64,000 nt of DNA, taken from the IMG/VR virus record IMGVR_UViG_3300031753_000005, positions 1 through 64,000 of that record; one strand, written 5' to 3'. This document shows, piece after piece, positions 21,036 to 22,959 of this stretch. The first letter of the stretch is position 1. Every line of letters starts with the position of its first letter. This stretch comes from a virus. The notes under the pieces were generated by a model, which saw nothing but the letters and a program-made list of their open reading frames with translations, made no database searches and was not told the DNA's origin. Both the position numbers and the translations under genes were made by a program.

Positions 21036-21424
21036 ATGGCTGCCACCTCATATGGCACAAACGATCCGCTGGCGGTCAAATTATGGTCGCGGCGGCTTAT
21101 CGTCGAAGTTCTGAAAAATACCTGGTGCTCCCGATTCATGGGGGAGTCCTCGGGCTCGGTCATCCAAATCAAGGATGAGACGTCCAAAGGCCCCGGCGAC
21201 AAGATCACCTACGGGCTGCGCATGCAGCTCACGGGCGCAGGCGTCATCGGCGACGGGACGTTGGAGGGTCAGGAAGAGGCTCTCACCACATACAACGACT
21301 CGCTCTTCATCAACCAGCTTCGGCATTCGGTCCGGTCCGCCGGCCGCATGACGCAGCAGCGGGTGCCGTTCAACATCCGTGACGAGGCTCTCAGTGGCTT
21401 GAGGGACTGGTGGTCCGACAGGCT
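21036..21424 (+). CDS. Major capsid protein, N4-gp56 family, exon 1
   Basis: Encodes the first 129 residues plus two bases of the next codon. The start (YGTNDPLAVKLWSRRL), the GDKITYGLRMQL stretch and the QQRVPFNIRDEA / WWSDRL block follow the N4-gp56 major capsid family. Unspliced, the frame runs 25 more bases into a TAA at 21447-21449, giving a truncated 137-residue product. The exon ends at U21424, pairing with the intron guide as a U-G wobble. Joined to 22272-22959 it gives 358 residues, normal for the family. Confidence 0.92.
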
Positions 21425-22271
21425 TGAAGTCAGGCCCCTCGCGGCGTAAGTCGCGAGTGACAACGAGGTGAATTGCTGGAAACCCCTAACGTAAAGTCGA
21501 GGGCAATCAGCAGCCAAGCCTTGAATTGATATGGGATTTCTGGTAATTTGATCGAATGAGAAACGATCAGTTACCAGATGGTATGAGATACGTTTTCGCT
21601 GACGGTTCGCCAGCGAGACGATGCAAAAAATGCGGAGATTGGAAGCCGCTTTCTGAGTTCCAGATGTACGATGTGTCCCGCGGGTGGCGTCGCCACGCAT
21701 GCAGAACATGCAACACGGCTCGCATCGAGGAATGGCATCGGGAACACGCAGAAGAACGGAAAGCTAAAAATAGGGCTAAGTATGCGGCCGATCCGATCGC
21801 ATACTGGTCGCCTCAACGCCGGAAAAGAGCCAATGAATTGGCCAAAAAACGAGCCACGGTGCTTCGCGAGCTAGTCTTGGTCGCTTATGGGCGCCAATGC
21901 ATTTGCTGCGGAGAGGCCGAGCCGAGGTTTCTGACGATCGATCACATCGAAAACGATGGGGTCATTCAGCGGAAATCACATGGCGTTGGCGCTCATTTCT
22001 GGCGCTGGCTTATCAAGCGCGGCTTCCCCGATGGTTTCCAAGTCCTTTGCATGAACTGCAATTTTGGCAAGGCCATGAACGGTGGCATTTGCCCCCATGT
22101 CGCCAAGGAAGGTTCAACGACTATCCCGTAAGGGAGTACGGCCAAGCGGCCGGAAGTGCCTCGGACCCTACCAGCCTAGCTGGAGGGCCGTGATATAGTC
22201 TGCTCTCACGGGAAACCGTGAGCAGTCCGAACGGGCGGTCGGAAAGTAGCGATCTCCGGCGAACATCAAGG
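21425..22271 (+). mobile_element. Group I intron in the major capsid gene
   Basis: An 847-base self-splicing intron candidate. P1: exon GGCU pairs with GGCC (21433-21436) with a U-G pair at the splice site. P10: GAAGUC (21426-21431) pairs with GAUUUC in exon 2. Core elements: P3 CGAGG (21464-21468) with CCUCG (22159-22163); P4 UUGCUG (21473-21478) with CAGCAG (21508-21513); P5 CCCU/AGGG; P6 GCCUU (21518-21522) with AAGGU (22109-22113); P7 GACUAU (22119-22124) with AUAGUC (22195-22200); P8 at 22166-22187; a P9 hairpin at 22202-22224. Extra stems between P7 and P3' (about 22125-22153) resemble subgroup IA. The terminal G is 22271. The HNH gene fills the P6 loop. Confidence 0.93.
21556..22131 (+). 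CDS. HNH homing endonuclease inside the intron
   Basis: A 191-residue protein. Four Cys in CKKC and CRTC (residues about 24-52) suggest an N-terminal zinc finger, followed by a basic helical region. The HNH core is at about 110-180: CICCG, then FLTIDHI with the catalytic His, and LCMNCNFGK with the second Cys pair and Asn. It would cut intronless capsid alleles and promote intron spread. The last codons lie in P6' and the 5' strand of P7, so translation and folding of the intron compete for the same bases. Confidence 0.92.
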   Translation: MRNDQLPDGMRYVFADGSPARRCKKCGDWKPLSEFQMYDVSRGWRRHACRTCNTARIEEWHREHAEERKAKNRAKYAADPIAYWSPQRRKRANELAKKRATVLRELVLVAYGRQCICCGEAEPRFLTIDHIENDGVIQRKSHGVGAHFWRWLIKRGFPDGFQVLCMNCNFGKAMNGGICPHVAKEGSTTIP

Positions 22272-22959
22272 CGATTTCAGTTTTCTGAATCAAGTCTGCG
22301 GGAACACCGCCCAGGTCGATACGCGGTTCACCGGGCTACAGGCGACGCTGATCCCGTCCGACACGAGCCATCAGGTTTTTGTCGGGAGCACGGGCAATGC
22401 CGGCACTGACCAGTCCATCTCGACAACCGAGACGTTTACCTTGACGGTAATCGACAAGGCGGTCGAGCGGGCGCGATCAATCTCGCCGGCTATTCGGCCT
22501 GTGATGATCGGCGGGCGGGCGTTCTACGTGGCGTTCCTGCATCCCTATCAGATCACCGATCTGCGCACCAACACCAATACCGGCCAGTTCATCGACATTC
22601 AGAAAGCGGCGATGACCGGCGGCGAAGTCGAAGACAATCCGATCTTCGACGGCAGTTTGGGTATGTACAACGGCGTGATCTTGCACGGCGATTATCGGGT
22701 CAGTCTCGGTGTCAATTCATCAACGACAACCCTCGCAGTGGCAAGCACCCGGCGAGCGGTGTTCGCTGGTGCCCAGGCTGCGGTCTGCGCTTTCGGGCGC
22801 GACAACGGGCCGGAGCGGTTTACGTGGGTCGAGGAACTCTTCGACTACGAGAACCAGCTCGGTGTCGCGGCGGGTCTGATCTTTGGTCTCAAAAAGGCAG
22901 TGTTCAATAGTGCTGACTTCGCGGTCATCACGATGGACACCTACGCCGCAGCCCACTGA
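22272..22959 (+). CDS. Major capsid protein, N4-gp56 family, exon 2
   Basis: Encodes the C-terminal 229 residues. The first base completes the Leu codon of exon 1, giving ...DRL-DFSFLNQVCGN, which matches the family's expected spacing between the WWxDR and FNQ elements. The body contains AFYVAFLHPYQITDLR and a C-terminal FDYENQLGVAAGLIFGLKK segment typical of the fold. Without splicing only a fragment from an internal codon near 22441 could be made. GAGGAGG precedes the next gene 12 bases downstream. Confidence 0.92.

Follow-up and report, generated by a model that had tools for sequence, protein, structure and literature searches.

The window, i.e., the whole stretch of DNA analysed here (64,000 nt of an uncultivated virus record that is 64,035 nt long), carries a major capsid gene interrupted by an 847-nt insert (Table 1). 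Read from 21036, the frame of exon 1 reaches a TAA stop 25 bases inside the insert, as the original prediction had stated; stops occur in all three frames of the insert, and exon 2 lies in another frame than exon 1. Removing the insert joins CT and C into the predicted leucine codon (DRL-DFSFLNQ) and yields a stop-free product of 358 residues, reading ...WWSDRLDFSFLNQVCG... The exons match adjoining portions of PF13252 (Phage_capsid_3), namely profile positions 3-123 for exon 1 (E 1.5e-29) and 129-375 for exon 2 (E 8e-47), as well as positions 1-129 and 152-380, respectively, of the major head protein family PHROG 334 (phrog_334). On these similarities, the predicted spliced product is a Phage_capsid_3 major capsid protein (N4 gp56-like). 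The comparison with intronless relatives proposed at the outset confirms the interruption: the gene is unbroken in the best 80 viral relatives, with a contiguous junction stretch in those listed, and the spliced protein is approximately 70% identical to relatives across the junction. No second copy of the PF13252 capsid family was found within the 64-kb window.

Table 1. Features of the interrupted capsid gene (positions in the window)
Feature	Position	Strand	Basis or remark
Capsid gene, whole, including insert	21036-22959	+	coordinates exact
Major capsid gene, exon 1	21036-21424	+	residues 1-129 and the first two bases of codon 130
P1, GGCUUG-AAGU-CAGGCC, cut after GGCU	21421-21436	+	sequence; 21421-21426 with 21431-21436, U.G at 5' splice site
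Predicted group I intron, T4 td-like (IA2), 847 nt, last base G	21425-22271	+	frame repair, R1, RF00028
P2 hairpin, CUCGCG/CGCGAG	21438-21457	+	sequence pairing
In-frame TAA	21447-21449	+	would end unspliced capsid at 137 aa
P3 5' strand, CGAGGU	21464-21469	+	6/6 pairs, with GCCUCG 22158-22163
P4-P5, UUGCUG/CAGCAG with P5 between	21473-21513	+	pairing; Rfam alignment
P6 5' strand, CCUUG	21519-21523	+	sequence; with CAAGG 22104-22108, HNH ORF in loop
Predicted HNH endonuclease ORF, 191 aa, P6 loop	21556-22131	+	phrog_2255, phrog_1035, motifs
P7 5' strand, GACUAU	22119-22124	+	pairs with 22195-22200
P7 3' strand, AUAGUC	22195-22200	+	pairs with 22119-22124
P9 hairpin, CUCACGG/CCGUGAG	22205-22222	+	7 pairs
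Major capsid gene, exon 2	22272-22959	+	remainder of codon 130 to stop
P10 exon 2 strand, GAUUUCA	22273-22279	+	7 pairs including one G.U, with UGAAGUC 21425-21431

The insert displays a group I core, in which P3 and P7 form a pseudoknot accompanied by P4, P6 and P9, with a U21424.G wobble in P1 at the cut and G22271 as the terminal intron base. The P1 pairing with U-G at the cut and the P3-P9 helices anticipated by the original prediction, including P7, can all be drawn, P8 with five of six pairs by the strands tested, and P7.1 and P7.2 are also present; the anticipated P10 pairing with exon 2 exists too, with seven pairs (one of them G.U) where 6 bp had been expected. Relatives carry compensatory changes in P7 (GACCAU/AUGGUC, GGUCAU/AUGACC, GAAUAU/AUAUUC), and most P9 pairs covary.

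The covariance search recommended with the prediction gave a match that stays below the curated limit: Rfam at gathering threshold finds nothing in the window, and a local search of a 1.1-kb stretch with RF00028 gives 25 bits (E 5e-4), compared with a gathering score of 50, which is a curated sensitivity threshold and no defining trait of group I introns. The general model thus misses the window intron at that threshold because of its low score, while relatives L085, L089 and L103 exceed 50 bits. As RF00028 sees this intron weakly, a dedicated covariance model (R1) was built from the 3' halves of 25 relatives' introns, with the window excluded; in this 25-intron alignment, for 23 of the 26 predicted pairs, at least one sequence has replaced both bases and still pairs. 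R1 recognises the 3' half of the window intron with 142.1 bits (E 6.6e-40), as its sole match in the 64 kb, and has no match over 582 kb around the best 80 uninterrupted relatives. It also detects the positive controls, i.e., the T4 td (110 bits) and nrdB (109 bits) introns and the DNA polymerase intron of phAPEC7 (125 bits). Since R1 finds td and nrdB, the window intron is placed with the T4 td type, which we take to be subgroup IA2. According to a published survey, more than half of viral group I introns belong to IA2 (PMC11835236).

The ORF located in the P6 loop, whose 3' end overlaps the 5' strand of P7, is related to phrog_2255 (HNH endonuclease, 5.6e-16) and phrog_1035 (endonuclease VII, 5e-15). 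It conserves the HNH motifs C.CCG, DH..N.DG and LCMNCNFGK, and D129, H130, N133 and the paired cysteines are invariant among the HNH relatives aligned. Judging from these matches and motifs, the encoded protein is an HNH protein of the intron-endonuclease type. The lack of a Pfam HNH match for this protein, and of any relative by sequence when its profile was compared with solved structures, count against a mobile intron.

Searches by capsid similarity returned intronless loci only, because their ranking favours unbroken matches; the HNH protein was therefore used as a query, and this revealed relatives encoded within other PF13252-family capsid genes. Junctions were placed by reading frame, the U before the cut, the terminal G, profile score and P1, some being set by hand from same-site relatives. 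With four cases added to the count (L103, L185, L309 and L316), 38 introns were located in 31 non-identical PF13252 contigs, at 20 positions and with up to three per gene, nearly all with the 3' end form GAACAnnnG. Numbered by window residue, with the digit after the dot giving the phase, the insertion sites are 8.2, 31.2, 32.1, 64.0, 65.2, 83.0, 89.0, 104.0, 108.0, 110.0, 126.1, 130.2 (the window), 132.2, 134.1, 134.2, 259.0, 262.0, 319.1, 319.2 and 322.1; where the proteins are divergent, the separation of neighbouring sites hinges on the alignment, but in most cases their phases differ. One locus (L090, near 259) offers no clean junction.

Five of these capsid genes hold two introns each (L089, L115, L129, L133 and L138). 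At L138 (2224-3759), an ORF-less intron of 264 nt is followed downstream by an HNH-bearing one. The capsid gene of L087 (2697-6367), whose sequence is identical in another sample (L088), contains three group I introns, the second and third separated by an exon of 57 nt, and the third bearing a different ORF that does not match the window HNH family. Where the intron sits at codon 8 (L103, 739-1510; L185, 2311-3053; L309, 1098-1842), exon 1 is reduced to 20-23 nt; at L103 the HNH gene is found between P1 and P4 and not in the P6 loop. Three R1 matches within 2.2 kb beside a P22-type coat gene fragment (L134, 1235-3441) suggest another multi-intron capsid gene.

Sequence conservation is higher around insertion sites than around random positions (mean identity 0.81 vs 0.71, p 0.004, with sites grouped conservatively into 15 positions, L316 left aside). 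Introns occur in none of the 80 closest capsids, in a ranking that favours unbroken genes, and in one of 46 capsids selected with a stretch free of known insertion sites. The introns are therefore sporadic and intronless alleles exist, as expected of mobile introns; the rarity among close relatives nevertheless counts against this explanation.

The HNH tree requires 12 changes of site label (the minimum plus one) compared with 19.6 when labels are shuffled, none of 200 shuffles being as low, which indicates that enzymes found at the same site are mostly kin, as homing predicts, with occasional moves between sites. The window enzyme groups with those of L316 (codon 132) and L082 (codon 134) with a support of 80, which places the nearest kin of the window intron 6 and 12 nt downstream in the gene. 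As the stretch enclosed by the conserved DR and NQ has equal length in the window, L316 and L082, these are distinct insertion points at 6-nt intervals, and each intron has a P1 of its own. The introns at codons 130, 132 and 134 would fit a local movement of one lineage.

The insert is very probably a mobile group I intron of the T4 td type (IA2), spliced from the capsid mRNA and homed by its HNH enzyme. This upholds the central claim of the original prediction, that the major capsid gene is split by an HNH-bearing group I intron, through the empty sites, the frame repair, the P1, P10, P7 and P3 pairings, R1 and the type of the HNH protein. Following this mechanism, the late transcript would fold, an exogenous G bound at P7 would attack after U21424, and exon 1 would then attack after G22271, so that the joined mRNA could be translated into the 358-residue capsid protein, an unspliced message giving only the 137-residue fragment. 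Homing most likely begins when the HNH enzyme cleaves, close to the insertion site, an intron-free capsid allele carried by a co-infecting phage; repair of the cut allele would then copy the intron in. The metagenomic origin of the contigs counts against this explanation.

It could be argued that the insert is a fossil intron, whose splicing has been lost or become too weak and whose capsid allele has decayed, given that splicing itself is inferred and that the unclean junction of L090 raises the possibility that some copies are decaying. All core helices are nevertheless intact, the R1 score exceeds those of the proven T4 introns, the spliced protein is full length with its identity to relatives maintained across the junction, and no other PF13252-family copy was found in the window, making decay very unlikely. 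Another reading would have the insert retained and the capsid made in two pieces, with the 137-aa product and the downstream part working as distinct polypeptides: the exon 1 frame is indeed a complete ORF up to the TAA, and a downstream ORF can start at TTG 22441. This would leave exon 2 with a late internal TTG start only, although conserved capsid sequence lies between the junction and this start, and the P1 and P10 pairings would be purposeless; we regard it as extremely improbable. In view of the stops, the frame change and the intact core, both the two-polypeptide and the decayed-gene readings were rejected. Gene-interrupting elements with HNH domains can also be inteins, but an intein or other in-frame insertion removed at the protein level is refuted by the stops and the frame change between exons, and no intein family was matched, which brings its probability close to nil.

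The distribution of the HNH relatives extends beyond PF13252 genes. When relatives were fetched by HNH sequence alone (80 distinct proteins, best 80 loci), 68 of these best 80 lay within 2.5 kb of a major capsid gene, comprising 26 near PF13252 and 42 near P22-type coat genes, the remaining 12 being near neither. In ten loci scanned that have R1 matches and lie outside the first set, the downstream exon encodes a P22-type coat protein (PF11651 or phrog_283) in nine, and a PF13252 capsid in the tenth (L309). Scanning genomes with the HNH profile yielded six metagenome-assembled loci, among them L309 with its intron at codon 8. Several HNH relatives located by P22-type coat genes have no R1 match (L159, L166, L168 and L175), and their HNH gene may accordingly be free-standing or lie in an intron that R1 misses. 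An independent scan for a core motif found at least 119 stretches, which gave 91 non-redundant downstream exons; among the matches listed, 22 of the 91 exons belong to capsid Pfams (SU10_MCP 7, Phage_capsid_3 5, Phage_capsid_4 5, Phage_capsid_2 2, P22 coat 2, Phage_capsid 1), the largest host-gene class, while terminase Pfams count three each.

This intron/HNH lineage sits mainly in or beside major capsid genes, where it has settled at many positions. It is rather likely, with less assurance than for the window intron itself, that the HNH gene, together with the td-type intron carrying it, represents a lineage specialised on the major capsid genes of at least two families (PF13252 and P22 coat), hopping to new sites within the gene, sometimes by small steps (codons 130, 132 and 134), and able to accumulate several copies there. 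This family-level claim, and it alone, is challenged by the possibility that the concentration on capsids is a sampling effect, since most of the HNH profile was taken from introns located within or next to PF13252 capsid genes, and each scan retained the best 80 loci. The first scan, however, used the window HNH protein as its sole query, the profile includes no P22-coat member and yet 42 of the best 80 non-identical relatives lie by P22-type coat genes, and capsids are still the largest class among the matches listed from the independent motif scan. We therefore consider a sampling effect unlikely, while granting it an appreciable chance.

Production of the virus shell in such phages would depend on RNA splicing and, because each virion requires hundreds of copies of the capsid protein, the bulk of late output would hang on a ribozyme. 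If the specialisation is real, capsid genes would be a place of constant conflict, fought through intron homing, between phages infecting the same cell. Sister introns at neighbouring sites of one gene would allow a direct test of how new sites are acquired, and the panel could show whether endonucleases of introns in essential late genes are weapons that co-infecting phages use against each other, a role reported for an intron endonuclease of phage PhiPA3 (PMC11620839).

Searches of open-licence papers found no report of introns in the N4gp56 capsid family, nor of an intron/HNH lineage found predominantly at capsid genes. Some of the introns described here may be listed in a recent survey of phage group I introns, reportedly by Merk, Jones and Eddy. 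The original prediction had considered introns in capsid genes rare and had named none in this family; capsid introns are less unusual than this, as the PF13252 family holds dozens and LittleE and Tuc2009 provide other cases (PMC3706429). In mycobacteriophage LittleE, an intron of approximately 820 nt with an endonuclease gene inside interrupts the major capsid gene, and splicing was established by RT-PCR and N-terminal protein sequencing; this phage belongs to another group, its endonuclease is encoded on the opposite strand with LAGLIDADG similarity, and its intron is only most likely of group I (PMC3706429). The lactococcal phage Tuc2009, from a Gram-positive host, has a group I intron in a capsid subunit gene, as cited in PMC3706429.

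The td and nrdB introns of T4 (NC_000866) share with the window intron the ribozyme core and an endonuclease gene inside the intron (I-TevI and I-TevIII), but their host genes encode enzymes of nucleotide metabolism instead of a capsid protein, and the endonuclease is of the GIY-YIG type in td and a truncated HNH protein in nrdB (NC_000866 annotation), as against HNH in the window. The phAPEC7 intron (KF562340) likewise contains an HNH gene, but interrupts a DNA polymerase gene. In the Jug phages, with a mean of 18.5 group I introns per genome, terL, nrdD and DNA polymerase genes are split (PMC12363816). Podoviridae sp. ctDrO704 (MW202512, L110) has an intron in a gene of the same capsid family as the window, with an HNH protein 40% identical to that of the window and an R1 score of 139 bits, L110 being part of the R1 training set; its intron lies at codon 31, compared with 130 in the window. 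The annotation of this complete genome (MW202512.1, L110 3278-4963) misses the intron, starts the capsid gene inside exon 2 and names the HNH gene icea protein. As gene callers truncate or miss intron-split capsids in this way, virus taxonomy and surveys of head genes are biased. Capsid introns are already known from LittleE and Tuc2009, and the interest of the window intron comes from the family-level pattern, which makes both intron site-hopping and competition between phages at an essential late gene testable.
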